Source of the DNA: Gemmobacter caeni
GTDB taxonomy: Bacteria; Pseudomonadota; Alphaproteobacteria; Rhodobacterales; Rhodobacteraceae
Reading direction: 5' to 3'
Assembly (NCBI RefSeq): GCF_003054195.1
Contig: NZ_QBKP01000002.1
Coordinates: 265,970-329,969, forward strand
DNA length: 64,000 nt
The stretch's first letter is position 1, and every line of letters starts with the position of its first letter. The notes under the pieces are model-generated. The model was given only the letters and a program-made list of their open reading frames with translations, had not been told where the DNA came from and did not search any database. The position numbers were made by a program, and so were the translations under genes. Positions 16,599-49,783 of this stretch are shown here, one piece after another.

Positions 16599-16773
16599 AT
16601 GATGATTCATGTTGATGGGGATATCTTCCCCGAAGAGATCAGAAGGATGGCCTGCTGAAGGAAGGATGCGTCCGGACCCGTAGACTGCCAAAATCTCCCA
16701 GGACGGCCCTCTGGTGAGATCTGAAAACACTTGGGTTTTCCACAACTAAACGCGCGATGGTCAAGCAATCCCC

Positions 16774-16785
16774 TTTTTCGCAAAG
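16774..16785 (+). promoter_or_regulatory. TTTTTCGCAAAG element upstream of dotD
   Basis: A near-consensus copy 50 bases before the dotD start, following the DnaA-box-like TTTTCCACA by 30 bases. It probably controls the dotDCB-icmT transcript. Confidence 0.5.
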
Positions 16786-16834
16786 ACGCCAGTTGATAGG
16801 GTGCGGAAGAGAACCCTCAGCGGAAGTGACTGCC

Positions 16835-17323
16835 ATGAGATTCAAACTGATCCTGTTGACCCTGGCGACCGCCACCATCGTTTCGGGCTGCGCCGCCGGC
16901 CGTGGCGACACGGAGGGTCCACCGATCGACGAGGTGGACGCGAAAATCGCTGAGGCGGTTCAGATCTCCGCGAACGCGAACAAGGCGATTTCGGAGGTCG
17001 AGGTTGCGACCGCGGGTCCGGTTCGCGCCGGCCCCGCCCAGCATGTGCCTGAAAATGTCGTGCTGCCTCCGGAGGCGGTCCAGCCGATCACGGTCGACTG
17101 GAACGGCCCGGTCGAGACCTTCCTCCAGGCGATCTCGCAGCGCGCCGGCTACACGCTGAAGGTCACGGGACGTGCCCCCGCGAACCAGGTGATGATCTCC
17201 CTTCGCGCCGAAGAGGAGCCCCTCTTCGGGGTTGTCCGTCGGGCCGGGAACATGGTGCACGGCTACGCCGATATCGCGTTCAACCCGGCGAACGGGACCA
17301 TCGAACTCCGCTACGGGGGCTGA
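16835..17323 (+). CDS. dotD: DotD/TraH outer-membrane lipoprotein
   Basis: A 162-residue lipoprotein with signal MRFKLILLTLATATIVSGC (lipidated Cys19). The C-terminal part (PITVDWNGPVETFLQAISQRAGYTLKVTG...RAEEEPLFGVVRRAG) is the secretin-N0-like domain of DotD. With DotC it helps place DotH in the outer-membrane ring of the type IVB channel. The ATG at 16835 gives a proper lipoprotein signal; the longer frame from 16757 would put the element inside the gene. It is first of four genes in dotD-dotC-dotB-icmT order. Confidence 0.88.
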   Translation: MRFKLILLTLATATIVSGCAAGRGDTEGPPIDEVDAKIAEAVQISANANKAISEVEVATAGPVRAGPAQHVPENVVLPPEAVQPITVDWNGPVETFLQAISQRAGYTLKVTGRAPANQVMISLRAEEEPLFGVVRRAGNMVHGYADIAFNPANGTIELRYGG

Positions 17324-17326
17324 CCC

Positions 17327-18265
17327 ATGAGACACCGCACGCTGATGATCGGACTGATGGCCGGGGTGGCGCTGACCGCCTGCGCGCCGGTCCCGTCCCG
17401 GATGGAGCCGCCAGCCGCGCCGGCACCGCAAGCGATCGGCGGCGGTGAGGACCTGCGCCGTGGCCAGGAGCCGGTGGCCAACCCGTCACAGGTCCGGATC
17501 GACCTGCATGACCCGAAGGACGAAAAGGTGGAGATCACCGAGATCCGGCGCCGCGCGCTCATGGAGGCGGCCCAGGGCTACGGGTCACAGATGGGATACG
17601 CGCGTCGGGTCTGGGAGATCGAGGGGCTCCTCGAGGCGCGTGCCCCGTCCCTGGACGAGGTGTTCAGCTTCGGTCGGGTGGTGACCGAGGCCCCCGTCAA
17701 GGCGGGCTACATCATCCCCCCCATCGTGAGCCGCTCCTTTGACGCGTTCCGGAGCGACAATGAGGGCCGTGAGGCCTCCGTCGCGGACGAGTATCTCACC
17801 ATCGTCGCTCCGGGCCGGATCGTTCCGGTCACGCCGACCTGGCGGGACTACCTTCTCTTCACCGCGGCGCAGCCGGAACAGCCGGCACGCTCCCTGCTGC
17901 CCTCGAACGAGATGGAGCGGAAGCTCTTCACGGAATGGTTCCGGGACGGCTGGTCCGCGGGGGTCTCCCTGGCGGATGAGGAGATCAACCTGCGGCTGAC
18001 CCGGTTGCGGCGGGATTATGAGGGGATGCTTCAGTATCGTCGGCTCGTCTCGATGGGGATGATGGACCGGATGGTTCTGGCCCAGGCGGACTTCGGGGTG
18101 ACCGGCGGGGGTGATGAGCTCCGGATCGGGTCCCGGACCGTTCAGATCGTCTCGGACGCACAGTTTGATGCGAACCCGCGCCGTTGGTCCGTTCGCGAGG
18201 TCGGCGCCCGAGATCGGGGGATCGTCGAACTGGGGGAGATCCCCGCCCTCAGCACGCTCTACTGA
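17327..18265 (+). CDS. dotC: DotC/TraI outer-membrane lipoprotein
   Basis: A 312-residue lipoprotein (MRHRTLMIGLMAGVALTAC, lipid Cys19). Family features: RRRALMEAAQGYGSQMGYARR (~70-90), LDEVFSF, AGYIIPPIVSRS, IVPVTPTWRDYLLF, SLLPSNEMERKLFTEWFRDGW and LTRLRRDYEGMLQYRRLVSMGMM. DotC works with DotD to target the DotH ring protein to the outer membrane. It starts 3 bp after dotD. Confidence 0.93.
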   Translation: MRHRTLMIGLMAGVALTACAPVPSRMEPPAAPAPQAIGGGEDLRRGQEPVANPSQVRIDLHDPKDEKVEITEIRRRALMEAAQGYGSQMGYARRVWEIEGLLEARAPSLDEVFSFGRVVTEAPVKAGYIIPPIVSRSFDAFRSDNEGREASVADEYLTIVAPGRIVPVTPTWRDYLLFTAAQPEQPARSLLPSNEMERKLFTEWFRDGWSAGVSLADEEINLRLTRLRRDYEGMLQYRRLVSMGMMDRMVLAQADFGVTGGGDELRIGSRTVQIVSDAQFDANPRRWSVREVGARDRGIVELGEIPALSTLY

Positions 18266-18272
18266 GGTGATC

Positions 18273-19544
18273 ATGAGCGAGCAGGCGGAGATCAGGCCCG
18301 TCAGAACCCGCCGGGTCTCCCCCGGTGTCGAGCAGGCCCGCAAGGTCCCGATCATCGTCGGTTCCGGGGAGGCGTTCATGCTCGATCAGGACCCGCCCCG
18401 GATCTCCATGGAGGACTTCCGGGCCCTCCTGATGTCCTGTGTCCTCTCGGGCGCCTCGGACGTCACGATCCAGTCGGACCAGCAGCCGCGTGCGGAGATC
18501 CACGGCCTCCTCTACCGGACGACCCGCCGCCCCTGGGGACCCTCGGAGGTGGACCAGGTCCTCATGGAGGTATACGGGGGCGCCAACGCGCGCACGGAGA
18601 TCAACGGGCAGAGGGTGCTGGATTTCTCCTATGAGCTGAACCTGCCGGACGGGTCGCGTCAGCGGTTCCGTTGCAACGCGATCGGGATCTTCGGGCGGGA
18701 CGGGCAGGGGGTTGAGATCACCCTGCGGGCGCTGCCCTCCGTGACCCCGTCCCTGCCGGGGGTCGGGCTCTCCGAGGGGGAGACCCTCGCGCTGTCGCCA
18801 CGCGACGGGATCGTGATCATCGCGGGCGCGACCGGCTCGGGCAAGTCGACCACGATGGCGGCTATCACCCGTTCCCATCTTGAGAACCTGTCCAGGCCGG
18901 TGAAGATCGTCGATATCCAGGCGCCGATCGAATACACCTACCGGGACGTCACCAACGGGCTGACCGGTTCCCCCTCGGTGATCGGTCAGTCCGAGGTCGG
19001 CAAGCATATCCGCGGCTTCGCTGACGGGGTGCACGCGGCGCTCAGGCGAAAACCTCACATCATCAACGTCGGCGAGGCGCGGGATTTCGAGACGATCCAG
19101 GCCTCGATCGAGGCGTCTCTCACCGGCCACCTGGTCTACACGACCACCCACGCAGGATCGGTCGCGGACGCGGTGCGCCGGCTCCTCTCCGTCTTCCCGG
19201 CGAACGAACGGGAGAGCCGGGCCTATGACCTGATCTCCGCGCTCCGTTTCCTGATGGTTCAGCATCTCGTCCCGCGTATCGACCGGCCCGGCCGGGTCGC
19301 GATCCGGGAGTACATCCGGTTCACGCCGCGGGTCCGGGAGGGGCTTCTTGACGCGCCGATCAACGACTGGCCGCTCAGGATCACCGATGAGGTCTATGGC
19401 CGGACCCAGGGGGCAGGCGCCGAGGACATGCGGCTGAGCCTTCTGGACTCGGTCGCCCCGCTCTTTCGGGACGGGGTGATCTCACGTGATGACGCGTTGC
19501 GTCTGGGCGGCCTCGCCGTCATCCGAGGAGGGGGGAAGGCATGA
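18273..19544 (+). CDS. dotB: DotB/TraJ secretion ATPase
   Basis: A 423-residue PilT-like hexameric ATPase. Walker A is GATGSGKST (~185-193), the Asp box/Walker B-like PHIINVGEARDFETI, and a His box region TGHLVYTTTHAGSV. The N-terminal ~150 residues form the PAS-like domain of DotB/PilT proteins. DotB energises the type IVB channel with DotO. GAGGTG precedes the ATG at 18273. Its end overlaps icmT by 4 bp (ATGA). Confidence 0.93.
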   Translation: MSEQAEIRPVRTRRVSPGVEQARKVPIIVGSGEAFMLDQDPPRISMEDFRALLMSCVLSGASDVTIQSDQQPRAEIHGLLYRTTRRPWGPSEVDQVLMEVYGGANARTEINGQRVLDFSYELNLPDGSRQRFRCNAIGIFGRDGQGVEITLRALPSVTPSLPGVGLSEGETLALSPRDGIVIIAGATGSGKSTTMAAITRSHLENLSRPVKIVDIQAPIEYTYRDVTNGLTGSPSVIGQSEVGKHIRGFADGVHAALRRKPHIINVGEARDFETIQASIEASLTGHLVYTTTHAGSVADAVRRLLSVFPANERESRAYDLISALRFLMVQHLVPRIDRPGRVAIREYIRFTPRVREGLLDAPINDWPLRITDEVYGRTQGAGAEDMRLSLLDSVAPLFRDGVISRDDALRLGGLAVIRGGGKA

Positions 19545-22117: not shown

Positions 22118-22638
22118 TCCGTACCCGCCGTCCCGGGCAGATCGCCGTCAAACGGGACGTCCCGTCCCGGACCTGACAGGAAATACCACCGCGCCATCAG
22201 GGCCGCCTCTGCGAGCCCGTGGTTCTTTTTTACCCGGAACAGGGGCTTCTGGTCCGGCCAGAGCTCCGTCGCGAGGGCCCGTGCGGCGTCCTTCGCCTCG
22301 TCCCGGCCGAGGCCGCCGAGGCGGGACGCCGCCTTCCAGCGCTGGGGGGAAACCGGCTCGATCGGTACGTGGCGGGCGGAGACGGCGCCGAGGATCGTGC
22401 CCACGCACATGCCGAAGGTGAAGACCGCGCTCGCCCCCTGGTCCGGCCGCGCGCCCACCTCCTCGATGATCGCGCAGTCCGTCCCGATCATCAGCTCTGC
22501 GATATGGACCGGACAGGGGCGCCGGAGCCGTCCGGATCCGATCAGATCCACCTCCCCCACCTCGATCCGGTGCGGGGTCTCCGTGTTCAGGATCGCAAAG
22601 GAGGTGGCCCGGCCCGGGTCGAAGGCGACGATCCGCAT
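22099..22638 (-). CDS. RuvC-like (RNase H fold) nuclease
   Basis: A 179-residue protein of RuvC size. It starts MRIVAFDPGRATSFAIL (Asp7), has IIEEVGARPDQGASAVFTFG (Glu59/60) and ends with SPQRWKAASRLGG...KKNHGLAEAALMA (His140, Glu144), the metal-binding pattern of RuvC-type nucleases. It may cut Holliday or branched DNA intermediates. Its ATG overlaps the dotL stop (TGATG), so it is translationally coupled to the coupling protein, an unusual partner. Confidence 0.82.
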   Translation of the reverse strand: MRIVAFDPGRATSFAILNTETPHRIEVGEVDLIGSGRLRRPCPVHIAELMIGTDCAIIEEVGARPDQGASAVFTFGMCVGTILGAVSARHVPIEPVSPQRWKAASRLGGLGRDEAKDAARALATELWPDQKPLFRVKKNHGLAEAALMARWYFLSGPGRDVPFDGDLPGTAGTDQNRQG

Positions 22639-25600
22639 CAGTCCTGCCCTCGCATGGCCTGTTCCAGGGTCTTCTCGATGCCGGACAGGCGTGATCTCAC
22701 CTCGTCCTCCCCCGCCTCATGTGGCAGGACGGTCGGCCGCATCGGGGCGGCCCGCTCCATGATCTGAGCGGCCAGGTCCCCCTCGGCGACCTCGGAGATG
22801 AGGAGCCGGTGCATCTGCTCCATCTGCCGGGACATGGTCCCGAACATGGCGGCGACCGTCTCCGTCCGGGTGGCCCCCTTGAGCCCCTCCCGGATGTCTG
22901 GTCTGAACCCGGACTCGGCCGCCTGTTTGCGGACCTCATCCTCGAACTCGAACATCCCGATGATCCCCATATGGCGCGCGTTCGGGGTCTCCCCCCGCAT
23001 CGCCATCTGGATGCTCTCCGTGACCCGGGAGGGGACCTCGTTCCGGGTCCCGCTCGGCGGCGGCAGATCGGGGACCCGGGCGGGAGAGGCCGGGGGGCGC
23101 GCCGGCTCGGTCCGCGGTGCGGCGGGCCGGGCCGAGGTGGGGCGTTCCGCCCCCGACCCCTCTGAGGGGGGTACGACCGGTTCAGGCCTGATCGGGGCCG
23201 AGGCGTGACCGCGCAGGTTTCCGAGCCGACCCGCCTGCGCCTCCCGGAGGTCCGCGCCGGGGATCTCCGTGGCGACCGCCCGTTTCCGGATCCCGGCCAT
23301 CTCGCGCAGGTCGTCGAGGTCCGGACCGGAGATCCCGTCCTCGATCATGTCCGACCAGCCCTCCGGCTCCGGGTCGGCGGCGCCCTCCCCGTCCAGGGTG
23401 GCCGCGAGGCCGATCAGGTCCGCCGTGCGCAGGGCGGCCGGGGTCATCTTCCCCGCGCCGGCCCGGGCACGGAACCGTTCAGAGACGGAGAGGGCCAGGG
23501 CGAGAGGGTCCTCGAGATCGATCACCGGGGGCTTCAGGCCGGCCCCCATGGCGGTCGTGATGTCGATCAGGCCCTGAACAAAACTGTTGTCGACGGACTG
23601 GTCCAGGCCCGGCACCTTGTCCGTCGGTCCCCGCACCTTGAGGAACTTGTTGACCGAGAAGTTCTCGCCGAACTCGTCCCCGATGAAGAAGGTCGCCGCC
23701 CGAACCAGCTTCCCGTTGAACAGGAAATAGAACTGGCCCTCCCCGAGGCTCTGGAGCTCATCGATCCGGACCTTGTCCACCTCCTGAAAGGTCGCGTCCA
23801 TCCGGTCCACCCAACGGTTCCCGAGGATCCCGGGCTGGGACTGGAATCCGGAGGCGACCGAGACGGTCGACTTCCCGATCAGTCGTTGTACGAAGCTGAT
23901 CGTCTTGTCCCCGTCCACCGTCTTCCCGACCGCGAGGATCGAGGCGTTCGCGGCCGCCGTCTCCGCTATCTGCGGGGAGGTCTTCTGCATCGCGGCCATG
24001 TCCTGGCCGGCGACGATGATCATGAAGCCGAGCGAACGCGCCTGGGCCATCATGACGTCGATCCCCGGAACCATGTAATAGCCCGCCTCGTCCAGGACGA
24101 CGATATACGGGGAGGGGGCGCGGGTCTGTTTCGCCTCGACGATCTCCTGACGGGTCCCCTGAAGTTCGAAGCCGGCCGCGTTCCCCATCATGATCTTCGC
24201 AAGGGTGACGACGATCTTCCCGCAGTTCTGCATCTCCTCCGGCGCCTTCTGGAGGGCGGGAAGAAGCACGACCAGGATCCGCCGGTTCAGCACGACATCG
24301 TCCATGTCGATCTCGCCCAAGGGCGTGCGGAAAATGTGTCCGTAACCGTCCGCCAGAGACCCCAGCGGTTTGGTTAACTGCATGGAAAGAAAGCCATATT
24401 GTTCGTTACACTTGGTTTCCTGCGGGTCCCCGGCCATCGCCTTTTCGAGCGAGAAACCGGGCAGGGTGTCGAAGAAACCCCGCAGCGCGAGCAGGGTGGT
24501 CTGTGAGAGTTCCCCCTTCATGGCGCGCAGATAGAGCTCGATGAGACCGGCCCGGGTCCGCATCTCGTCCCAGGCCTCCTTGGGGATCTCCTCCACCTTG
24601 GTGGGCTTCTTGCCGCGGAGCTTGGCCTTGTCGACCCCCTTGCCCAGGGCGAGGAAGTCCCGGACCGTCTGGACGTTCAGGAGGATCTCTCCGCTGTCGC
24701 GCAGCTCGCACAGCGCCATCATCTGGGCGGTGACGAGCGAGATCGCCCGGCTCTTCCACATGTCGTTGCCGGAGCCTGCGTCCCCCATCAGGGAGACCAC
24801 GATGTTCATCAGCTGGTCCGGGGACCCCTTGGAGAACGGGTTGAGGGTGTTGGACTGGGTGGAGGGTCCGCCGGCCGGCGCGTCCGGGTCCCCGCCCGGG
24901 TCGGTGAAGTTCAGAACCCGCAGGTCGTCCTCCCGGCCGAACCGTTTGCACAGGGTCCAGGCGCGTGCGTAGAACTCGGTGGTCCCCTTCCCGTCGATGA
25001 ACAGGAACCCGGAGGACCACATCAGGGTCTGGGAGACGACCCCGAGCAGGAGCTCCGTGTTATGGGTGGTGACGTGACCCTCCATCACATAGAGACCGTC
25101 CTCGCGGTCCACCTTGATGCAGGACATGCGGGTCAGCCCGTCAACGGGTTCCACGCCCACGATCGGCAGACCGGTCTCATGAGGCCAGCGGCAGGTGCTC
25201 GCAGCGGGATCGATCAGCTCGACGCCGCGGTACAGGAGGGTGACGTCCGTGCGCCCCTCCGCGGTCAGCCAGGAGGTGGCGAACCCGCCGAGCGACCAGG
25301 CGATCTCCTTGAGGAGCCGCGCCTCTCCGGGGCGGACGCCGATGAGGCGGACCCCCTGAGGGTCGATCCGGGACTCGAGCCCGCGCGACCGCACGAACCG
25401 TGCGAGGAACCGGGACCGCTCCTGCGGCGTGCCGATCACGGAGGGCATGACGAGGAGACTGTCCAGACCGTCCCGGGCGGCCCGATCAGCCGCCGCGTCT
25501 GAAAGGCGCTCGCCCGCGTCCGGCCCCGTGAACGGGGCGGCGAGCGGAACGGTCATGTCAAGGTCGGCCCCGTAGAGGCCGAACAGGATCCCGATGTCGC

Positions 25601-26315
25601 GCGCCTCCATGACACGCCCCTCCTCGGGAAGCGCCTGAGGGCAGGAGAGGCCTGGCTTTGAGGTGGCGCGCACGTGCCAGAGGTGATCCTCGGAGCAGAC
25701 CGCCTCGCGTCCGTCCGCGAACAGGAGCCGGATCCCCGGGATCGCCCCCTGGGGATGGATGGAGAGGACCCGGGAGACCCCGCCGTCCGGGTGCGCGACC
25801 AGGTCGCCCGGGGCCAGATCCCCGTTGCGGACCCAGCCGCCCGGGGTCAGGACCGGGGTGTCGAGCGGGAGCGCCTTGCCGGACCCGGTGGTCCCGATGA
25901 AGAACCCGTGACGTCGCGCGTCCCCGTTCTCGATCCAGAGCTCCTCGAGCCCGGACTCGTCCTGGCCGAAATAGAGGATACCGGCCGCCTTCCCGAACCG
26001 GCCACGGCCGCCCGGCTTGGGCGCCCCGTAATCGGTCCCGCCCCAGGTGATCGGGGTCTTGAAAGGGAGCCGGTATTTTTGGCGCGCGGCCCAGACGTAA
26101 TAGGTCAGCGCGCTCGGCACGACCAGGAGGAAGACGGCCGGGATCAGAAGGGTCAGGAGTCCCGATCCGACCATGATCATCATGACCGTGTCCCGGTGGG
26201 TGAGACCGTCACGAACCCGCTCCCCCATCCCCTTGACGGGGCGCCGGATGTAGCGGTTCTCGACCGCCTCCGAACTGGTCGGAAGGGAGGGCTGGGACTC
26301 CTTGAAGATGGCCAT
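22638..26315 (-). CDS. dotL: DotL/IcmO (type IV coupling protein) interrupted by an intein
   Basis: The reading frame encodes 1225 residues, of which 272 are an intein (148-419). The spliced protein would be ~953 residues. Two N-terminal membrane segments (~45-75) anchor this TraD/VirD4-like ATPase, which brings DNA or protein substrates to the type IVB channel. The Walker A motif GTTGSGK-T is split exactly between Lys147 and Thr420. Walker B is YIVVLDEAGYY. The last ~230 residues are Pro-rich then helical, the substrate-adaptor region in DotL. Without splicing the ATPase would be inactive. The RuvC-like gene overlaps the stop; an exported-protein gene lies 35 bp upstream. Confidence 0.93.
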   Translation of the reverse strand: MAIFKESQPSLPTSSEAVENRYIRRPVKGMGERVRDGLTHRDTVMMIMVGSGLLTLLIPAVFLLVVPSALTYYVWAARQKYRLPFKTPITWGGTDYGAPKPGGRGRFGKAAGILYFGQDESGLEELWIENGDARRHGFFIGTTGSGKALPLDTPVLTPGGWVRNGDLAPGDLVAHPDGGVSRVLSIHPQGAIPGIRLLFADGREAVCSEDHLWHVRATSKPGLSCPQALPEEGRVMEARDIGILFGLYGADLDMTVPLAAPFTGPDAGERLSDAAADRAARDGLDSLLVMPSVIGTPQERSRFLARFVRSRGLESRIDPQGVRLIGVRPGEARLLKEIAWSLGGFATSWLTAEGRTDVTLLYRGVELIDPAASTCRWPHETGLPIVGVEPVDGLTRMSCIKVDREDGLYVMEGHVTTHNTELLLGVVSQTLMWSSGFLFIDGKGTTEFYARAWTLCKRFGREDDLRVLNFTDPGGDPDAPAGGPSTQSNTLNPFSKGSPDQLMNIVVSLMGDAGSGNDMWKSRAISLVTAQMMALCELRDSGEILLNVQTVRDFLALGKGVDKAKLRGKKPTKVEEIPKEAWDEMRTRAGLIELYLRAMKGELSQTTLLALRGFFDTLPGFSLEKAMAGDPQETKCNEQYGFLSMQLTKPLGSLADGYGHIFRTPLGEIDMDDVVLNRRILVVLLPALQKAPEEMQNCGKIVVTLAKIMMGNAAGFELQGTRQEIVEAKQTRAPSPYIVVLDEAGYYMVPGIDVMMAQARSLGFMIIVAGQDMAAMQKTSPQIAETAAANASILAVGKTVDGDKTISFVQRLIGKSTVSVASGFQSQPGILGNRWVDRMDATFQEVDKVRIDELQSLGEGQFYFLFNGKLVRAATFFIGDEFGENFSVNKFLKVRGPTDKVPGLDQSVDNSFVQGLIDITTAMGAGLKPPVIDLEDPLALALSVSERFRARAGAGKMTPAALRTADLIGLAATLDGEGAADPEPEGWSDMIEDGISGPDLDDLREMAGIRKRAVATEIPGADLREAQAGRLGNLRGHASAPIRPEPVVPPSEGSGAERPTSARPAAPRTEPARPPASPARVPDLPPPSGTRNEVPSRVTESIQMAMRGETPNARHMGIIGMFEFEDEVRKQAAESGFRPDIREGLKGATRTETVAAMFGTMSRQMEQMHRLLISEVAEGDLAAQIMERAAPMRPTVLPHEAGEDEVRSRLSGIEKTLEQAMRGQD
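25059..25874 (-). other. class 3 intein in the DotL P-loop
   Basis: The 272-residue insert starts with Ala (ALPLDTPVLTPGGW) and ends VTTHN, followed by Thr as the +1 residue. It has the class 3 hallmarks: no Cys/Ser at position 1, Cys252 in block F (MSCIKVDREDGLYV), Trp66 in block B (DHLWHV) and Thr270 before the final His-Asn. In class 3 inteins the block F Cys starts splicing and the +1 residue is Ser or Thr, as here. The middle (~95-205) resembles a LAGLIDADG endonuclease that has lost its acidic residues (GLYGADLD, RFVRSRGLE), so homing is probably dead. Splicing looks intact. Confidence 0.9.
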
Positions 26316-28251: not shown

Positions 28252-29706
28252 TCATGTTGCGGGACCTTTCCGGAGATCGGGGGCGGGCGGCTTGCCTCGG
28301 GCCTCCAGGGCGCGGCGGATCCGCTCCTCGGGGGTCATCGCGAGATCCCGCTTGATGGCGCGCATCTGAAGGCGCGCCTCCGTCACGTCCAGATAATCCT
28401 CGCGCAGGGCTCGGGCCGCCTGGAACACGGCCGGGCGACGGATCGGAAGTCCGATCTGGACCTCCGCCTTGAAGTGCGACATGGCGCCGGCGGATTCGAT
28501 CATGACCGCGTCTGATCCGACGTTGTCGAGGATGTACCACAAAAGCCGGTCCTCCCCCTTGAGCCAGAGGAAGGCGGCCGCGGGAAGGACTCCGCGGTCC
28601 TTGCGGGCGACCTGAAGCATCGCCGGGAAGGCGGTCTCGACCCAGGCGTGGCGGGCGGCCACCTCCGCGAGCGCCCTTCCGGGCTTGCCGTCCAGGATCT
28701 TGCGGATGCGTGGCATGAGGCCCTCCTCGGCCAGAATGGCCTTGTCCATGCCGCCGGGCTTCGCGCCGATCGCGTCATATACCCCGCCGAGATCGTTCAG
28801 AAGGGCGTTCCCGCCGGTGATGTCGAAACTGTAGAAGCTCGCCATGACGGCACAGATCGCCTGATGGCCGGGGCGCAGGTCCTTGAAGCCGGTCCAAGGG
28901 GTGCGCAGCTGTGCGGCAAGAAGCTCGCACAAGGATTCGATATCTGTCTCCGGCCAGCGGTCACGCGCCTCGAGAAGGCGCGACGGGTACTCCCAGTCCT
29001 TTTTTTCGGCCGCAGCCGCGTGCTCGGGTGAGAAGCACATCCCGGCCCCGAGCAGCCACTCCTCCGGGCGGAGCGCGCGTTGCCAGGCCCCCTGGCGTTG
29101 CGCCGGCTGATCAAGGCTGATGAGCGCACCCACCTCAGGGACCGTCTTCGTCTTTCTGCGCTGCGCGAGGACCCCCTTCGCGAGAGATGTGGCGGAGACC
29201 TCCGGGACCCTGAGCGGGTTCACGTGACGGCTCATTCGGGAGGTGAGCCAGTGCTCCGACTGGGCCCGGATCATCGTCTCGAGCGTGTAGCCGACCCGGT
29301 AGACCACGTCGGGACGAAAGCTCCGTCCCAGGGTGCCCGCGATCAGCAGGAGGGGGACGTAGAGCGGGATGGCGCAACGTCCCGCGATGGTGAGAAGCAT
29401 CATCCGCTGTTCGGGGGTCATCGCGACGTAATTCCCCTGCTCCAGGAAACGCAGCGCGTGATGCGCCTCCTCGAAGACGGAGGGTCCGATGAGCGGGATC
29501 GCCCCCAGAACGGGCAGGGCCCGGTAGGCCATCGCATAGGGGAGGATATGGGCCCAGGAGATCACGCCGGAAATCACGTTGATCTCCGGTTGAAGATAGG
29601 TCCATGCGAAGAGGGTGATCAGAAGGAGCGCGATCGAGATGAAGAGCCAGCGCATCGACTCCTGGTCGGCGTTCGGCCCCTGTCCGGCGTTCGGGTTCTG
29701 GCTCAC
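28252..29706 (-). CDS. dotM: DotM/IcmP (TrbA) coupling-complex protein
   Basis: A 484-residue inner-membrane protein that forms the coupling complex with DotL. Membrane segments lie at ~17-38 and ~108-130. The cytoplasmic part shows the family's pattern: RPEEWLLG, AICAVMASFYSFD, and HAWVETAFPAMLQVARKDRGVLPAAAFLWLKGEDRLLWYILDNVGSDAVMIESAGAMSHFKAE. The C-terminal tail is basic. It overlaps the upstream gene by 4 bp and is separated from dotL by two exported proteins and a promoter. Confidence 0.9.
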   Translation of the reverse strand: MSQNPNAGQGPNADQESMRWLFISIALLLITLFAWTYLQPEINVISGVISWAHILPYAMAYRALPVLGAIPLIGPSVFEEAHHALRFLEQGNYVAMTPEQRMMLLTIAGRCAIPLYVPLLLIAGTLGRSFRPDVVYRVGYTLETMIRAQSEHWLTSRMSRHVNPLRVPEVSATSLAKGVLAQRRKTKTVPEVGALISLDQPAQRQGAWQRALRPEEWLLGAGMCFSPEHAAAAEKKDWEYPSRLLEARDRWPETDIESLCELLAAQLRTPWTGFKDLRPGHQAICAVMASFYSFDITGGNALLNDLGGVYDAIGAKPGGMDKAILAEEGLMPRIRKILDGKPGRALAEVAARHAWVETAFPAMLQVARKDRGVLPAAAFLWLKGEDRLLWYILDNVGSDAVMIESAGAMSHFKAEVQIGLPIRRPAVFQAARALREDYLDVTEARLQMRAIKRDLAMTPEERIRRALEARGKPPAPDLRKGPAT

Positions 29707-33927: not shown

Positions 33928-36828
33928 ATGCTCAGACTGCTGACCGGGATCATCGTCGGAACCGGCCTCGCCGCCGGGGCCGTCTCGGCCCAGACGACCA
34001 CCTCGACAGTTCTGACCGGAGAGGCGTTCGGCTTCGTCGCGGCAGACAGCACCATGCCGGACCCCTTCGCCTTCGGCCCGGTCAGCGGGGTCACCCCGGA
34101 CGGTATCCCGGTGGTCTCCAACATCATCACGATCAGCGGGATCACCGAGCCGGTCGAGGCGAGCGTCTCGGACCTCGGGACGGGCGGGGACCCCAGGATC
34201 AGCGTGAACGGCCAGATTTACGTCACCTCCGCCACGGTTGAGGATGGGGACTCCATCAGGGTCTCCATCCTTCCGACGATCGGCGGCTACAGCCAGACCT
34301 ATCAGGCCGAAGTGACGGTTGGCGAAGGTTCGGCCATCTTCCAGGTCACCACGCGTGCGGCGGACACGATCCCTGATCCGTTCTTCTTCGCGGCGGCCGC
34401 GAACCAGGACCCGAACACCCTCATCGCGTCTCAGCCCGCCACCATCACCGGCCTTGAGGCCACCGCATCAGTATCCGTCTCCGGCGCAGGGACCCCTCAG
34501 GTCAGCCTTGACGGGGGGGCGAGCTGGGTGAGTGCCGGATCAGTTGCGAATAACGGAACGGTTCAGGTTCGTCTGACCTCTGGCTCTTTCGGGGAGACCC
34601 GCACGGCGACCGTCACCATCGGCGGTGTCCCCTCGACCTTCGAGGTCACCGTACGCAGCTCGAACGACACCCCGGTTCTGACCGCCTTCTCGGATCAGAC
34701 TGGCGTCAACCCGAACGTGGTTGTCGTCTCGGACCCGATCACCGTGACCGGGATCGAAAGCGAGGTGACCGGGTCAGTGTCGGGTGACGGTCTGCCCGAG
34801 CTGAGCGTCAACAACGGCCCCTGGGTCAGTGCGGGGAGCTCAACCCCCGTCGCGAACGGCGCGCAGGTTCGGATCCGTCTGACCTCCGGGGATTTCGGTG
34901 AGACCCGCAGCGCGACGCTCAACGTGAACGGGGTCACCGGTGCGTTCAGCGTCACAACGCGCAGCGCGGATACGACCCCGGACGGGTTCACCCTCGCGGC
35001 CGTCACCGGCGCCGACCCGAGCAGTCTTGTCGCCTCCGCCCCGGTCACCATCGCCGGGATCGAGGCGGCCGCTTCCGTATCCGTCTCGGGTGACGGGTCG
35101 CCGGAGTTCAGCCTTGACGGCGGGACCACCTGGGCGAGTTCGGGAACGGTCAGCGCGGGGCAGGAGATCACGGTCCGCCTGACCTCTGGCGGCTTCCTTG
35201 AGACCCGGGTTGCGACACTGACGGTCGGCGGGGTCAGCGGGGAGTTCTCCGTGACGTCGCGCGCACAGGACACCGCACCGGACAGCTTCCTCTTCGCCTC
35301 CCGGCTCGCCGCGCCCGGCGCGACGGTGGCGTCTGACCCGGCCACCCTTTCCGGCTTCGAGGGGTCCGTCGCCATCAGCGTTTCGGGTTCTGGCTCCCCG
35401 AGCTATCGGATCGACGGGGGGGAGTGGACCACGGAGCCCGGAACCGTGACGGTCGGCCGCCAGGTTCAGATTCGTCTGACCGCGGCGGAGACGGAGTCCA
35501 CCTCCCGCAACGCGAGCCTGACGGTCGGGACGACGAGTGGCACCTTCACGGTCACGACACAGGACCTTACCCCGAACGTCTTCTCCTTCGCGCCGGTGAC
35601 CGGCGCCGAGGTCGCCACGCTCGTCACCTCCGCGGACGTGACCGTCAGCGGGGTGACCGGTACCGTCCCGGTCTCGGTCGGCGGGGTGATCGGGGCTGAA
35701 TACCAGATCGACGGCGGCGCATGGACCTCCACCAACGGCTCCGTCGAGGCGGGTCAGACGGTTCGTGTCCGTTTCACCTCCTCCGGCTCTTTCGGGACCG
35801 AAAGCGTCGCAAACCTGACGATCGGAAGCGTTTCAGCGCCCTTCTCGGTCACGACCCGGACCCAGAACGCGACCCCGGACGACTTCACCTTTGCGGCCGC
35901 TCTCGTCGGACCTGGTGGGGAGGCGGTCTCCGATCTCGTAACGCTGACCGGTTTTGAGGGTTCGGTGGCGATCAGCGTTTCCGGTGACGGGTCACCCGTC
36001 TACAGCATCAATGGTGGCGCCTACACGTCAGATCCCGGTCTTGTCACGGCCGGGCAGACGGTACAGGTCCGCATGACCGCCTCCTCCACCGAGGGGGGCA
36101 CCCGTACCGCCTCCCTGACGGTCGGGACGATCACGCGGGACTTCGTTGTCACGACCCAGGACCTCTCGCCTGACGCCTTCGCCTTCAGCGCCGTCACCGG
36201 CGGTGCGCTTGGCGCGCAGGTCAGCTCAGATCCCGTGCAGGTTGCCGGGGTCACCGGGGCGGTCGCGGTCTCCGTCTCCGAGGGGAACGGCGGCCAGGTC
36301 CGGACCGGAACCGGGCCGGTCGGTGAGGTCGTCTGGTCCGACTGGACGGATCACACCGCCCCGCTGACCGTCACGAACGGGGGATGGGTGCAGGCGCGCC
36401 TGACCACCGCCTCCGCCTATGAGACGGAGCGTTCGGTGACGATTGCGGTCGGGACCGCCTCCGCGAGCTTCAGCGTCACGACCGGGTCCGAGCCGGTCAG
36501 TCTCGAACTCGGCACCGCACAGATCCCGGACGGGGAGGAGGGGGTCGCCTATGTCGGTTTCGACCTCAAGACCCTGATCGCCTTCACGGGTGGCGGGTCC
36601 GGCTCGCCGCCGAGCGCGGATGAGCTGACCTGGGCCGTGACCTCCGGGGCTCTTCCGACCGGTCTCGGCCTCGGTGCGGGGACGGGTCTGATCTCCGGGA
36701 CCCCGAGCGCGATCGGCGCCTACAGCTTCACCGTGACCGCCACCTATCCGGGCGGGGTCGCGGCGTCCCGCGCCTACACGATCATCGTCAACGATCCGGA
36801 AGGGTCACTCGTTCTTGAGGGAGGCTAA
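33928..36828 (+). CDS. large secreted adhesin-like protein with eight repeats
   Basis: A 966-residue protein with a signal peptide (cleaved after VSA). From residue ~44 it has eight repeats of ~95-100 residues with the pattern PDxFxFAxVTG...VxSxPVTIxGI...SVSGxGxPxxSxDGGxWxS...VRLTSGxxxETRxATLTVGGVxGxFxVTTR, each an Ig-like beta sandwich. The last ~100 residues are a putative-Ig (He_PIG) domain (LPTGLGLGAGTGLISGTPSAIGAYSFTVTATYPGG), ending IIVNDPEGSLVLEGG. No membrane anchor is visible. A surface or pilus-associated adhesin is inferred. First gene of the adhesin operon. Confidence 0.85.
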   Translation: MLRLLTGIIVGTGLAAGAVSAQTTTSTVLTGEAFGFVAADSTMPDPFAFGPVSGVTPDGIPVVSNIITISGITEPVEASVSDLGTGGDPRISVNGQIYVTSATVEDGDSIRVSILPTIGGYSQTYQAEVTVGEGSAIFQVTTRAADTIPDPFFFAAAANQDPNTLIASQPATITGLEATASVSVSGAGTPQVSLDGGASWVSAGSVANNGTVQVRLTSGSFGETRTATVTIGGVPSTFEVTVRSSNDTPVLTAFSDQTGVNPNVVVVSDPITVTGIESEVTGSVSGDGLPELSVNNGPWVSAGSSTPVANGAQVRIRLTSGDFGETRSATLNVNGVTGAFSVTTRSADTTPDGFTLAAVTGADPSSLVASAPVTIAGIEAAASVSVSGDGSPEFSLDGGTTWASSGTVSAGQEITVRLTSGGFLETRVATLTVGGVSGEFSVTSRAQDTAPDSFLFASRLAAPGATVASDPATLSGFEGSVAISVSGSGSPSYRIDGGEWTTEPGTVTVGRQVQIRLTAAETESTSRNASLTVGTTSGTFTVTTQDLTPNVFSFAPVTGAEVATLVTSADVTVSGVTGTVPVSVGGVIGAEYQIDGGAWTSTNGSVEAGQTVRVRFTSSGSFGTESVANLTIGSVSAPFSVTTRTQNATPDDFTFAAALVGPGGEAVSDLVTLTGFEGSVAISVSGDGSPVYSINGGAYTSDPGLVTAGQTVQVRMTASSTEGGTRTASLTVGTITRDFVVTTQDLSPDAFAFSAVTGGALGAQVSSDPVQVAGVTGAVAVSVSEGNGGQVRTGTGPVGEVVWSDWTDHTAPLTVTNGGWVQARLTTASAYETERSVTIAVGTASASFSVTTGSEPVSLELGTAQIPDGEEGVAYVGFDLKTLIAFTGGGSGSPPSADELTWAVTSGALPTGLGLGAGTGLISGTPSAIGAYSFTVTATYPGGVAASRAYTIIVNDPEGSLVLEGG
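34057..36492 (+). repeat. eight tandem ~290-bp repeats encoding Ig-like units
   Basis: The repeats are clear in protein but diverged in DNA. Related units recur in the gene at 37836-42167. This would allow recombination within and between the two genes. Confidence 0.75.
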
Positions 36829-36829
36829 G

Positions 36830-37819
36830 ATGCCCAGATCACGTCAACCCGGACCCCGGTCCCTGACACTTCGGGCCGCCCTTCTCGGTGCGGCCCTCCT
36901 CGCGGCCCCGGCCGTGAGCGCACAGACCACCATGACCCTGCCCCTTTACGGGGACGGGACGAACGGGGTCAACGCGATTATCGACTGGGGGGACCCGGCC
37001 GCGAACGCGTCCTGCCAGCGGGTCGTCACGACGGAGGGGCAGGTCAGCTGCACCTACCCGGCAGAGGCGGGCCCGCCCCCCTATCAGATCCGGGTCTCCG
37101 GGACCGTCCCCCGTTTCGGGAACGGGGACGCGGGTTATCCGAACGCGGACAAGATCACCCGTCTGGTCCGTTTCGGGGACGTCGGTCTGACCTCGCTGGC
37201 GGGGGCGTTCCGGGGGGCGGAACGGCTGACCCAGGTGGCGGCCGACTTCCCGGACACGGTCACGAACATCTCCTATATGTTCAAGGGTGCGGTCTCGCTC
37301 GATGACGCGAACGTCCGGAACTGGGGGATGCGCACCCGCAACGTCACCAACATGGTCGGGACCTTCCAGGACGCGCTCTCCTTCTCGCGCGAGCTCGACA
37401 CCTGGTGTGTGAAGCGGATTTCTGACCTGAGCGCGGTCTCCGCTTTTCGAGACAAAACGATCGACGGGGGATCTCTGACCCAGATCCGGAACCGGCTCGG
37501 CCAGATGGGGAGCGCTCTGACGGATGAGATGAAGCTCACCCAGGAGAAGGAGCCGCGTTGGGGTCAGTGCGGCCTCTCTATCGCCGCCTCCGCTCCGCCG
37601 GCCGCACAGGCCGGCGCGGCCTATTCGCTCGACCTGCGCTCGCGTCTCTCCCTCTGGGCGAACGCGCCGGCGGAGGCGAACATCAACGCCGTCACCTTCG
37701 AGATTGCGGCCGGGTCCCTCCCGCCAGGGATGACCCTGAACCCGACCACCGGTCTGATCAGTGGGACCCCGACCACCCCGGGGACCTACAACTTCACGGT
37801 CCGTGCGGCCCAGAACTGA
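36830..37819 (+). CDS. secreted protein with BspA/DUF285-type and He_PIG domains
   Basis: A 329-residue protein with a signal peptide (cleaved after AVSA). Residues ~110-190 hold DUF285-type pieces (LAGAFRGAERLTQVA, ISYMFKGAVSLDDANVRNWGMRTRNVTNMVGTFQDALSF), then a linker with two Cys, then a He_PIG domain (ITFE..GSLPPGMTLNPTTGLISGTPTTPGTYNFTV). The same domain pair occurs in the pilin-like gene at 49784. GGAGG precedes the ATG one base after the previous stop. Adhesion is the likely role. Confidence 0.8.
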   Translation: MPRSRQPGPRSLTLRAALLGAALLAAPAVSAQTTMTLPLYGDGTNGVNAIIDWGDPAANASCQRVVTTEGQVSCTYPAEAGPPPYQIRVSGTVPRFGNGDAGYPNADKITRLVRFGDVGLTSLAGAFRGAERLTQVAADFPDTVTNISYMFKGAVSLDDANVRNWGMRTRNVTNMVGTFQDALSFSRELDTWCVKRISDLSAVSAFRDKTIDGGSLTQIRNRLGQMGSALTDEMKLTQEKEPRWGQCGLSIAASAPPAAQAGAAYSLDLRSRLSLWANAPAEANINAVTFEIAAGSLPPGMTLNPTTGLISGTPTTPGTYNFTVRAAQN

Positions 37820-37835
37820 GTACGTGGAGATTGAC

Positions 37836-40800
37836 ATGAGGAAGTTCCGGAACGGCACGATCGCAGGACTACTGATCGGTTCAGCTCTTATCGGTGGCCT
37901 GGCCATCCCTGCGGTTTACGCACAGGTGGTGGTCGGCTCCCAGGACTTCTCAATCACGGTGGAGAACCCAAGTGATACCCTGCCGAACACGTTCACCTTC
38001 GCGAGCGTGACGAACGCGGAGCCCAACACCCAGGTCATCTCCAATCAGGTGACGATCACCGGGATTGATACGGTCGTACCGGTCACGATCTCCGGGTCCG
38101 GTACGCCTCAGTTCAGTCTGGACGGCGGGACCACCTGGGTCACCTCCGGCGAGATCGAGAGTGGCGGAACGCTCCAGGTCCGTCTCACCTCTGGTCCGCT
38201 TTTCTACTCCGGATCCCCTTTCAACACGACCCGGACCGCGACCGTCCAGGTCGGGACCGGCTCCGCGAGCTTCTTCGTTCAGAACCGGGTCGGCGACACG
38301 ACGCCGGACGCCTTCGTCTTCGCGAGCACCACGGGTTCCCCCATCAACACGGTCGTCGCTTCAGGGGTCGCCACGATTACCGGGATCGAGTCCGCCTCCG
38401 CCGTTACCGTGAGTGGCGCCGGGAACCCGCAGATCAGCATCGCCGGCGGCTCCTGGGTGACGAGCGGGGTGATCGAGAACAATCAGGAGATCAGGGTCCG
38501 CATGACCTCGCCGCGGACCTATGAGACGCTGCGCTCCGCGACGGTTACGATCGGCGGTGTGCAGGGGACCTGGTCGCTGACCACCGCGGATTGCGTGACG
38601 GGTGACCTCTTCTCCCTCGCGGTCGGGCAGGGGACCTGCTACAATAATCTTGAGGTCGTCAACGCGGGCCCCGGTCTCATCACCGTCGGCACGGTCGGGA
38701 CCGAGTATCCGAACTGGGCTGAGGCGACGGCGCTCTGCGGTGCGCTCGGCTCTGAATGGGGCCTCCCGCCGGATTCCGTCATGACCGGAACGGGCTCGAT
38801 CAACGTCAACCGGGACGTGGCCGGCGTGAAGGCGGTACTCGACCAGTCCAACTCGAGCACCTACTGGACCTCCACCTCCAGCCGGACCGTGACACTTGGG
38901 CTGATCCCGCAGATCCTGACCGGGGTCAACAGCAGCGCCTCCGCCTTCTGCTTCACGCAGCCCTGGCTGACCTCCCAGTTCGTTCCGGAAGATTACGTCC
39001 CTGACGCATTCTCGATCGCCTCCGCGAGCGGTGAGCCCGGCACGCTCGTCACCTCCGCCCCGGTCACCATCTCCGGTCTCGCCTCCGGACGGACCGTGCA
39101 GATGAGCGTCGCGGGTGATGCTGCCATCACCCCCACCTTCTCGATCAACGGGGACGCCTTCTCGAACGTTTCCCGACCCGTAAAAACGGGTGACAGCGTC
39201 GTGTTCCGGGTCGCCGCGAGCCAGTTCAACGGCGCGGATGTCGTTCTTACCGCGGAGACGCGCGATCCGGCCGGAACCATTACCGGCTCCGCGACCTTCA
39301 CCGTGACGACGGTGGCGCCGGCGTCGCAACTCGTCGACACCTTCGCCTTCAACTGGCAGTACTTCCCGCAGACCTATTTCGGCACCTTACCGGGGGACAT
39401 CTACCAGTCCGAGATCATTACCCTGTCGGGCGGATCGGGCACCCGTCCACTTCGGGTCCTGGGCAGCTCCGGTTACTACAACAGCGGTTCGCTGAATCGC
39501 TGGCCCCGGGTCTACGGATCGCGGATCTTCTACAAGAACACCAACGTGACGATCACCACCTCGCTGACGGATGACGCCAACGCGGTGATGTGGTCGACGG
39601 CGAACACGAATTATCCCAACATCGTCACCGATGTTGGCCGGACACTCAGGTTGAAGTTCGCGCCTGCGAACCAGAGCAACGAGGGCTACTCCGTCCTCTG
39701 CGTCGGGGCGACCTGTGCGGAATACATCTGGACGAACTCGGCCACCCGGTCCGACCCGCGTGCGGCCAACCCCTTCGACATCGTCGACGTGACCGGTGCG
39801 GAAAACAACACGCTCTACACCTCCGCCCCGTTCACCGTCTCCTGGGCGCCACGCACGGCCGGGGTCCAGCCGCCGAACATCCCGATCTCCGTCTCGGGGA
39901 CCGGCGCTCCGGAGTACCGGATCAACGGCGGGGCCTGGACGACCGCGGCCGGCTGGGTCCGGTCCGGATCGACCGTCGAGGTGCGGCAGACGAGTGCCGC
40001 CACGAACGGGACCGACCGGGTTGCGACCCTCAGCGTCGGGACCACCACCTCGACCTATGTCGTGCGGACTCAAGACATCCTGATCCCCGACGCCTTCGCG
40101 CTCGTGGCCGCCACCGGTTCCACGCCGAACACCCTTGTCACGTCCGCTCCGGTCACGATCACCGGGATCTCCGCGGCCGTCCCGGTCAGCGTGAGCGGGG
40201 AGGGCAATCCGCTCCTCTCCGTGAACGGCGGCGACTGGGTGAGTGAGGCGACCGTCGGGCCGAACGCGCAGGTTCGGGTTCGCCTGACCTCCGCCTCCGC
40301 CTATGAGGCGACACGGACCGCGACCCTGGACGTGAACGGGGTGACCGGGAACTTCGCTGTCACGACCGCCCCGTTCAGCTTCGCGGTGGCGCCGGTTACG
40401 GACGTGCTCATCAACGCGACGGCGACCTCCGAGCCGGTCACCATGCCCGCCTTCCTGCCCGCCTCCGCGATCAGCATTGTCGGTGACGGTTCCCCGAGCT
40501 ACAGCCTCAACGGGGGTGCGTTCACGGACCAGGCCGGGACGATCACCGCCGGTGACGTCCTTCGGGTTCGCCTCACCGCGGCCGGCACGAAAGATACGGC
40601 TCGTCTTGCGACCGTGACGATCGGGTCCGCAACGGCGGGTTTCAGCGTGCGCACCGCCCCTCCGGAGGCCTGCGAGACCGGAGCGGTCGGCTCCGTCTGC
40701 TCTGACGGGGCGGTCTACGCCGGGCTCGTCAACGGGTACAAGATCTTCGCCGCGCCGAGCTCTGACATCGGGGTGATGCTGAAGTCGACCGCGTCTGTGA

Positions 40801-42167
40801 CGATGGGGTCGATCTCGAACGACGGGCTCATCAACCATCACGCGACCACCCTCGCCGGGATCTCCAACCACCCGGCCGCGGCCGCCTGCGCGGCGCGGGG
40901 GCCGGAGTGGGTGGTCCCCTCCGCGACGGAGCTCCAGACCATGTATACCAACCGGGCCTCCGCACCGGCCGGGACCTACGTCCTGTCCGGGTCGACCGCG
41001 TCCCGTTACTGGTCCTCGACGGAGTTCACCACGGATCCGCGGCGCGGGACCTACCGGATCTTCGACGGGGGGACCACCGGGGACGCATCCAAGAACACCG
41101 CCTACCAGGTCCACTGTGTCCGCTACTCCCGCGAGGAGCCGCGGGTCTATCAGGACCCCTGCGCCTCCGGGGCCCCGGCGATCGGGACCATGTGTGCGGA
41201 CGGGGCTGTCTATGCGGGCGCGCTTGACGGGAAGGACGTCTACTTCGAGAGCACGGTCAGCGCGAACAACGTCGCCTACAAGACGGCGGCCACGTTCACG
41301 ACCGGGACGAACACCATCGGGGACCCGGTTCAGGCCAGGCTCGCGATGGAGTTCGCCGGGCTGTCCCAGTTCCCCGGCCAGCAGGTCTGCGCCGCGAAGG
41401 GGGTGAGCGCTTACGGGTCTGAATGGTACCTGCCGACCCGGCGGGATCTCCAGCACCTGATCACCAACCGGAACTCCGGGGTGCTGCGTCAGATGACCGA
41501 CTCGAACACCCGTGGCGCGACGGAGGTCCCGCAGTACATCATGGCGGCGACCCAGGAGGCGGATGCGCGTTATGCGGAGTACCTGGACAAGGGGACCTCC
41601 GGGGTCCCCGCCTTCGGGACCTCGACCATCTACCGGGCCAAGAAAAGCGCGAACAAGGGGGTCCTCTGCATGCGCTTCGACTCCCCGCAGACCTATGCGG
41701 ACCCCTGTGCGGGGACCCCGGCGGTCGGGGCGTTCTGCGCGGACGGGACCGTGTACGCCGGCAACGGGTACTACCTGCCGAACGTGGGGACCCTGTCGAG
41801 CGAGCTTCAGCTGAGGACCACCGCGACCTCCCTCGCCGGGACCACCAGCGCGTCGGACGGGATGGCGAACACAAACGCCATGATCGCCGCGGGCAATCAC
41901 CCGGCGGCCCAGGCCTGTCGCGCGCTGGGGTCCGACTGGTTCCTCCCGGCGATCGATCAGCTGACCTACCTGTCTTCTGTTCGGACCATCGGGGAGATCA
42001 ACGGGATGTATGGTCGTAACACGAGCAGTACCACGCCCGGTGGGGAGTACTGGTCCTCGACCCAGTCAGTCACTCCAACGGCGAGTCAGACCCGCATTCT
42101 TGCGTCAACGACGATCAACAGCAGGCTTAAATCGGGGGTTGAGGGGGTCATCTGTCTCCGGCAGTGA
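37836..42167 (+). CDS. giant secreted adhesin with Ig-like repeats and four Lcl/DUF1566-type domains
   Basis: A 1443-residue protein with a signal peptide (cleaved after VYA). About seven Ig-like units like those of the gene at 33928 are mixed with one Lcl/DUF1566-type domain (~residues 250-385), and three more stand in tandem at the C-terminus (~945-1443). Each begins like ACxxGAxGxxCxDGxVYAG and carries EW.LPt, YWSST and CVR-type patterns. Such domains occur in bacterial surface and pilus-tip proteins. GGAG precedes the ATG at 37836, so the frame from 37761 is too long. A strong terminator follows. Confidence 0.82.
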   Translation: MRKFRNGTIAGLLIGSALIGGLAIPAVYAQVVVGSQDFSITVENPSDTLPNTFTFASVTNAEPNTQVISNQVTITGIDTVVPVTISGSGTPQFSLDGGTTWVTSGEIESGGTLQVRLTSGPLFYSGSPFNTTRTATVQVGTGSASFFVQNRVGDTTPDAFVFASTTGSPINTVVASGVATITGIESASAVTVSGAGNPQISIAGGSWVTSGVIENNQEIRVRMTSPRTYETLRSATVTIGGVQGTWSLTTADCVTGDLFSLAVGQGTCYNNLEVVNAGPGLITVGTVGTEYPNWAEATALCGALGSEWGLPPDSVMTGTGSINVNRDVAGVKAVLDQSNSSTYWTSTSSRTVTLGLIPQILTGVNSSASAFCFTQPWLTSQFVPEDYVPDAFSIASASGEPGTLVTSAPVTISGLASGRTVQMSVAGDAAITPTFSINGDAFSNVSRPVKTGDSVVFRVAASQFNGADVVLTAETRDPAGTITGSATFTVTTVAPASQLVDTFAFNWQYFPQTYFGTLPGDIYQSEIITLSGGSGTRPLRVLGSSGYYNSGSLNRWPRVYGSRIFYKNTNVTITTSLTDDANAVMWSTANTNYPNIVTDVGRTLRLKFAPANQSNEGYSVLCVGATCAEYIWTNSATRSDPRAANPFDIVDVTGAENNTLYTSAPFTVSWAPRTAGVQPPNIPISVSGTGAPEYRINGGAWTTAAGWVRSGSTVEVRQTSAATNGTDRVATLSVGTTTSTYVVRTQDILIPDAFALVAATGSTPNTLVTSAPVTITGISAAVPVSVSGEGNPLLSVNGGDWVSEATVGPNAQVRVRLTSASAYEATRTATLDVNGVTGNFAVTTAPFSFAVAPVTDVLINATATSEPVTMPAFLPASAISIVGDGSPSYSLNGGAFTDQAGTITAGDVLRVRLTAAGTKDTARLATVTIGSATAGFSVRTAPPEACETGAVGSVCSDGAVYAGLVNGYKIFAAPSSDIGVMLKSTASVTMGSISNDGLINHHATTLAGISNHPAAAACAARGPEWVVPSATELQTMYTNRASAPAGTYVLSGSTASRYWSSTEFTTDPRRGTYRIFDGGTTGDASKNTAYQVHCVRYSREEPRVYQDPCASGAPAIGTMCADGAVYAGALDGKDVYFESTVSANNVAYKTAATFTTGTNTIGDPVQARLAMEFAGLSQFPGQQVCAAKGVSAYGSEWYLPTRRDLQHLITNRNSGVLRQMTDSNTRGATEVPQYIMAATQEADARYAEYLDKGTSGVPAFGTSTIYRAKKSANKGVLCMRFDSPQTYADPCAGTPAVGAFCADGTVYAGNGYYLPNVGTLSSELQLRTTATSLAGTTSASDGMANTNAMIAAGNHPAAQACRALGSDWFLPAIDQLTYLSSVRTIGEINGMYGRNTSSTTPGGEYWSSTQSVTPTASQTRILASTTINSRLKSGVEGVICLRQ

Positions 42168-49779: not shown

Positions 49780-49783
49780 GATC

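Follow-up and report, generated by a model that had tools for sequence, protein, structure and literature searches.

A probable intein in the Walker A motif of a DotL-type coupling protein

The sequence analysed is a stretch of 64,000 nucleotides of the Gemmobacter caeni genome (contig NZ_QBKP01000002.1, positions 265,970 to 329,969), called the window here, and positions refer to its first letter. On its minus strand, at 22638..26315, lies a gene for a coupling ATPase of the DotL/IcmO/TrbC type that appears to be interrupted by an intein. Conceptual translation of 22641-26315 (-) yields 1225 amino acids (aa). Three parts were distinguished, all on the minus strand. The N-extein (25875..26315) comprises residues 1-147 and ends with the Walker A residues GTTGSGK (141-147). 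The putative class 3 intein (25059..25874) has 272 residues (148-419), starting with ALPLDT and ending with VTTHN. The C-extein (22638..25058) resumes the Walker A motif with Thr420 in T420ELLLG and contains the Walker B motif VVLDE at residues 739-743.

In a phmmer search of the PDB, the precursor matched the solved IcmO/DotL structure 6sz9 with an E value of 1.9e-111. The alignment consists of two blocks, query residues 27-149 and 420-900, and since both blocks meet at chain residues 140-141, the insert was placed between K and T. The NCBIfam model NF041447 (TrbC_conju) matched at 8e-104 with 348 bits, which is under its cut-off of 800 bits. Assignment to the DotL/IcmO/TrbC coupling proteins is based on sequence relation, on the P-loop and Walker B motif of an ATPase, and on adjoining genes for type IVB transfer. 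A preliminary description of this DNA, made from the letters alone, had reported an insert of 272 residues separating Lys147 from Thr420 in a DotL Walker A motif; translation and the 6sz9 alignment bear this out to the residue. The predicted spliced length of 953 residues also follows from the translation (1225-272).

Catalytic residues and similarity to known inteins

Class 3 inteins are defined by Trp at B:12, Cys at F:4 and Thr at G:5 (PMC3196547, PMC5222942). The class 3 residue set of the insert is complete. It consists of Trp213 at block B:12 (codon 25677..25679) with His211 at B:10 two codons upstream, the block F:4 nucleophile Cys399 (25119..25121), and Thr417-His418-Asn419 at block G:5-7 (25059..25067), all on the minus strand, followed by Thr420 at +1. 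Trp213, Cys399 and Thr417 stand where the preliminary description had put them. Position 1 of the intein is Ala148, that is, neither Ser, Thr nor Cys. When 15 inteins were aligned, His B:10, Trp B:12 and Cys F:4 were found in all of them, including the eight members of the clade closest to the window intein. Thr-His-Asn is likewise present in 15/15, a count that is not independent evidence because the extraction pattern demanded [TS]HN.

Searched alone against the PDB with phmmer, the insert matched the gp41-1 intein (6riz, E 7.2e-8) as well as an intein of class 3 from DnaB (6bs8, 1.4e-7), with most of the similarity falling in the first 69 residues of the insert. Its initial part, together with up to 20 preceding residues, is also matched by PHROGs families (terminases, helicase loader, primase). 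An AlphaFold2 model of the intein, built from four sequences, reached a mean pLDDT of 64 and a pTM of 0.63, with the last 15 residues below 50. Foldseek, run with this modest model to look for the HINT fold of class 3 inteins, retrieved PI-SceI (1.9e-6, TMq 0.46); DnaB inteins of class 3 were hit as well (7.3e-6), but over just 69 columns and with an rmsd of 6.0. The Pfam intein model PF14890 had no match across the whole genome of the strain, and no Pfam or NCBIfam model named an intein in the precursor at E 1; annotation by these models would therefore miss it. The catalytic set, the PDB matches and the empty homologues described below all point to a class 3 intein in the Walker A motif of DotL, as had been proposed.

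Homologues with and without the intein

A class 3 intein occupies the same K/T junction in eight DotL proteins of the Rhodobacterales type, including that of the window, and the junction is also filled in the DotL of Methylorubrum extorquens AM1 and of Xanthomonas and Pseudomonas plasmids. A contig search yielded three loci related to the window protein, all from Rhodobacterales and all with the intein, but these are biased toward intein carriers because one of the six peptides used lay inside the intein. In a protein search of 41 relatives, three matched: the genome of the window itself, G024 with DotL and intein, and G015 with the intein alone, in a terminase.

A survey with NF041447, in which at most a few candidates per genome were scored, is less biased than the peptide search. 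Among 61 genomes of the family, DotL was found in four; weak matches in three more (G015, G045 and G081, E 3.7e-4 to 8.3e-4) were set aside as presumably other ATPases. Extended to 394 family genomes at E 1e-8, the survey detected DotL in six, the earlier four again among them. The intein is present in five of these (G000, which is the genome of the window, G024, G085, G300 and G407) and absent from G048. G407 harbors a second, intein-free DotL copy in an open frame of 462 aa, placed just outside the clade. In 190 genomes of the class, searched at E 1e-10, DotL was found in nine, and the eight besides G000 have an uninterrupted P-loop. The intein in the G085 DotL (L046:6710-9817) has Ser both at position 1 and at +1 together with the full Trp-Cys-Thr set; in this it departs from most class 3 inteins, which have no N-terminal nucleophile.

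Plasmid records matching the whole window protein numbered 3918 of 72,556, and 27 matched the insert. Among the latter are DotL records from Xanthomonas (6), Pseudomonas (2) and Methylorubrum (1), as well as six headed by the TraD of pKAZ5; the remaining 12 are mostly helicase and ATPase genes by annotation. The plasmid proteins read were one from Xanthomonas, two from Pseudomonas (one by its junctions only), and those of AM1 and pKAZ5. The insert also matched 431 of 50,697 phage records, the best-ranked match lying in a gene annotated as terminase, and a scan of viral contigs gave one stretch and no relatives. The idea that the insert is a normal domain of DotL, which the preliminary description had named as an observation that would speak against an intein, was rejected: homologues without the segment have an intact P-loop, and the other copies of it are themselves intein-like.

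Probable remnant of a LAGLIDADG endonuclease

Intein residues ~142-204 (25263..25451, minus strand) probably represent the eroded half of a LAGLIDADG endonuclease whose motif lacks the aspartate. In hhalign comparisons with three class 3 endonuclease regions this segment scored 39.05 (probability 70, 52 columns), and the best of 30 column-shuffled controls scored 18.14. In the window protein no Pfam LAGLIDADG match was obtained at E 1. LAGLIDADG_3 exceeded its threshold in the inteins of AM1 and TraD. In these two, LAGLIDADG motifs stand at both of the places where they are expected; Pfam supports the second, and the first was recognised by eye. The alignment revealed that the eight Rhodobacterales-type inteins, 272-312 aa in length, all miss the first LAGLIDADG domain. 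At the second motif the window intein reads FVRSRG where the AM1 and TraD inteins read LMDTDG, and none of the eight clade members has an aspartate in these columns. An active LAGLIDADG endonuclease in the window intein was ruled out on these grounds, the first domain being absent and the second motif devoid of Asp.

Nonsynonymous differences were computed between pairs of the eight clade members. They ranged from 0.17 to 0.39 in the N splicing block and from 0.10 to 0.28 in the C-extein, and from 0.24 to 0.63 in the endonuclease remnant and from 0.35 to 0.67 in the linker.

Phylogenetic relationships

Trees were calculated from 22 C-exteins and from 15 inteins. The C-extein tree did not include G106 (L045); in it G407b fills just 45% of the columns and G048 forms a long branch. 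The intein tree was made without the G015 terminase intein, the Curtobacterium and Burkholderia vietnamiensis IcmO inteins and the second Pseudomonas intein. The eight Rhodobacterales-type inteins form one clade (support 100/100), and so do their C-exteins (86/84). Mapped on the C-extein tree, the presence of the intein requires three changes of state: in the eight-member clade, in AM1, and in Xanthomonas plus Pseudomonas. In the 15-intein tree the inteins of AM1 DotL and of TraD are sisters (96/97), and this grouping suggests that the AM1/TraD type moved between two families of coupling proteins. The picture is consistent with class 3 inteins having reached a single P-loop site more than once, and with one old, now immobile lineage.

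Comparison with known systems

The preliminary description was unaware of any intein described in a type IV coupling protein. That none had been described is wrong: splicing of the IcmO intein from plasmid pBVIE03 of B. vietnamiensis G4, referred to as Bvi IcmO, was published in 2016, and public plasmids hold more such inteins, including one in TraD. For the class 3 Bvi IcmO intein, Tori and Perler (2016, PMC5222942) demonstrated splicing in a model precursor and a requirement for Cys F:4. Like the window intein it belongs to class 3 and resides in the same protein family (IcmO = DotL), but it has 142 aa, Pro1 and Cys+1. Moreover, it is inserted after QARSLGF and before CITFA, which corresponds to window residues 764/765, far from Walker A, and the Walker A motif of its own host protein is uninterrupted. 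In pBVIE03 (L056:1406-5968) an annotated integrase gene interrupts the Bvi IcmO region between the Walker A and the intein parts.

Closer counterparts occupy the very same K/T junction. The class 3 intein in DotL/TrbC of the AM1 megaplasmid (NC_012811), for which InBase presumably holds an entry as the AM1 TrbC intein, differs from that of the window by its 365 aa, its LAGLIDADG motifs and its sister relationship to the TraD intein. The class 3 mini-inteins of Xanthomonas and Pseudomonas plasmid DotL have 145 and 150 aa, start with Pro1 and are without an endonuclease remnant. The pKAZ5 intein, also class 3, likewise separates K from T in the P-loop of a coupling protein, but this protein is TraD rather than DotL, and the intein has 369 aa with LAGLIDADG motifs. 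Plasmid pKAZ5 (L033:3446-6418) is typed IncC and MPF_F, and five further plasmid records from Enterobacterales match the window insert at about equal identity. Insertion between the invariant Lys and Thr is shared by the P-loop inteins of mycobacteriophage TerL1-a, which reside in a phage terminase; the paper describing them (PMC5050341) calls this position classic and cites ATP-binding proteins as the hosts of ~70% of the inteins of bacteria and archaea. In the literature covered, which excluded most subscription papers and InBase, no intein was found to be reported from the Walker A motif of DotL. The window intein is thus a new example, but not the first intein of the DotL/IcmO family.

Interpretation

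It is considered highly probable that the insert is a class 3 intein, most likely competent for splicing and with a dead endonuclease, in the P-loop of a coupling ATPase of the IncI/Dot type, and that it is probably an old passenger. By analogy with class 3 chemistry, Cys399 would attack the Lys147-Ala148 bond, the N-extein would be transferred onto Thr420, and cyclisation of Asn419 would release DotL with an intact Walker A motif. Because Walker A is split, the unspliced precursor should, by established P-loop chemistry, be unable to bind or use ATP normally. Since an insertion in the P-loop is removable only by exact deletion, the intein would now be transmitted with the DotL gene; selection on DotL would maintain splicing, and the endonuclease part would decay. 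Splicing in Escherichia coli of a class 3 intein from this protein family (PMC5222942) counts in favour of splicing competence.

Several observations weigh against this interpretation. Splicing of the window protein is deduced from its sequence and from class 3 chemistry, and the Bvi IcmO intein splices poorly in its model precursor (PMC5222942). Arth_1007, a class 3 relative, is an inactive pseudogene, but it is without the Cys F:4 that is present here (PMC3196547). The WSLGG of the remnant is invariant in 8/8, which complete neutrality would not predict. Nonsynonymous differences in the C splicing block range from 0.13 to 0.52, the upper values occurring in distant pairs, and synonymous sites are near saturation between the eight clade members; for both reasons, relaxed constraint on the remnant is to be taken as indicative only. 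Within a five-member subclade the trees disagree: the intein tree of 15 rows joins the window to Defluviimonas (91/88), but the extein tree places it beside Thalassovita, Boseongicola and G300 (98/97), and an intein tree of eight rows leaves its place undecided. Some exchange is possible.

Alternatively, the intein could be kept for conditional splicing that ties DotL and conjugation to a signal, for example redox at Cys399, the remnant having turned regulatory. Its presence in all eight clade members without an intact endonuclease motif (three of the eight stem from the intein-peptide search) and the invariant WSLGG would agree with this, and oxidants and zinc are reported to affect the splicing of mycobacterial DnaB inteins (PMC6195587, PMC8557812 and PMC7360933). 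Against it, most of the remnant evolves fast, the mini-inteins of Xanthomonas and Pseudomonas at the same site are wholly without it, and G407 has its second, intein-free DotL of 462 aa. Conditional splicing is judged unlikely. Decay of the remnant, the intein-free copy and the mini-inteins elsewhere favour a retained passenger; a retained intein with a dead endonuclease accounts for the findings no less well than a switch of conjugation, and splicing as a regulator of conjugation is possible but unsupported. A more specific version, considered very unlikely, would have the dead intein fixed in one IncI/Dot-type lineage and co-opted as a post-translational gate, DotL remaining blind to ATP until a cue such as relief of Cys399 oxidation, with WSLGG tuning the rate and conjugation timed by splicing.

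Inactive class 3 inteins do exist (PMC3196547), but a non-splicing relic in an inactive gene is highly improbable here in view of the full catalytic set, the single open frame and the conserved N splicing block and C-extein. Least probable of all is an intein still homing into empty DotL alleles: the same insertion point is used in several lineages and the AM1 and TraD relatives keep their LAGLIDADG motifs, but in the Rhodobacterales type the first domain is missing, FVRSRG replaces LMDTDG in the window, and the aspartate is lacking in 8/8.

Genomic context and other class 3 inteins

The gene for DotM/IcmP, the partner of DotL, was recognised at 28252..29706 on the minus strand (PF23127 over its cut-off at 1e-36, NF033890 under its cut-off at 7.4e-31). 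Genes for DotD, T4SS_TraI, which we take to be DotC-like, and DotB lie on the plus strand at 16757..19544 (PF16932 over its cut-off at 3.1e-54; NF033882 at 9.6e-19 and TIGR02524 at 1.9e-78 under theirs). Because of these matches the region looks like a type IVB transfer region of the IncI/Dot kind. Further matches in the window are to secretin, T2SSE and T2SSF, resembling the genes of a type IV pilus. Near these pilus-like genes large frames are located at 33928-36828, 36815-37819, 37761-42167 and 49703-50971; one frame, of 966 aa, evidently contains repeats, and another, of 1468 aa, was matched by no NCBIfam model. A PARCEL-repeat hit (1.8e-7) and one to DUF285 (7e-25), a model named for Mycoplasma, were noted there as well.

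A second class 3 intein is present in the same genome and on the same contig, ~72 kb before the window (C2:193461-194102; L008, L015:9010-12009, minus strand). It comprises 214 aa, AQPLDARILTP...IVTHN, and follows GLGK in an SNF2-type helicase. The intein of G015 (L006/L016, contig C8) is class 3-like with LAGLIDADG. The phage-type terminase in which it resides is read in two different frames, one for the N-terminal part and one for the remainder, indicating a split gene, a broken one or a sequencing error. On a Miltoncostaea oceani plasmid (L034:2341-4662), a class 3 intein with LAGLIDADG is found in the P-loop of an ATPase of the T2SS/T4P/T4SS family.

Implications

Taken by itself, the window intein tells little about mechanism that goes beyond what is published for the IcmO intein. 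Its significance lies in the group to which it belongs: the P-loop of coupling proteins, with DotL at three places in the tree and TraD of pKAZ5, is a recurrent home of class 3 inteins. At this one site a graded series extends from endonuclease-bearing inteins over the eroded half to the mini-intein, which would be useful for studying intein decay, and the group may likewise serve for testing whether splicing ever limits DNA transfer.

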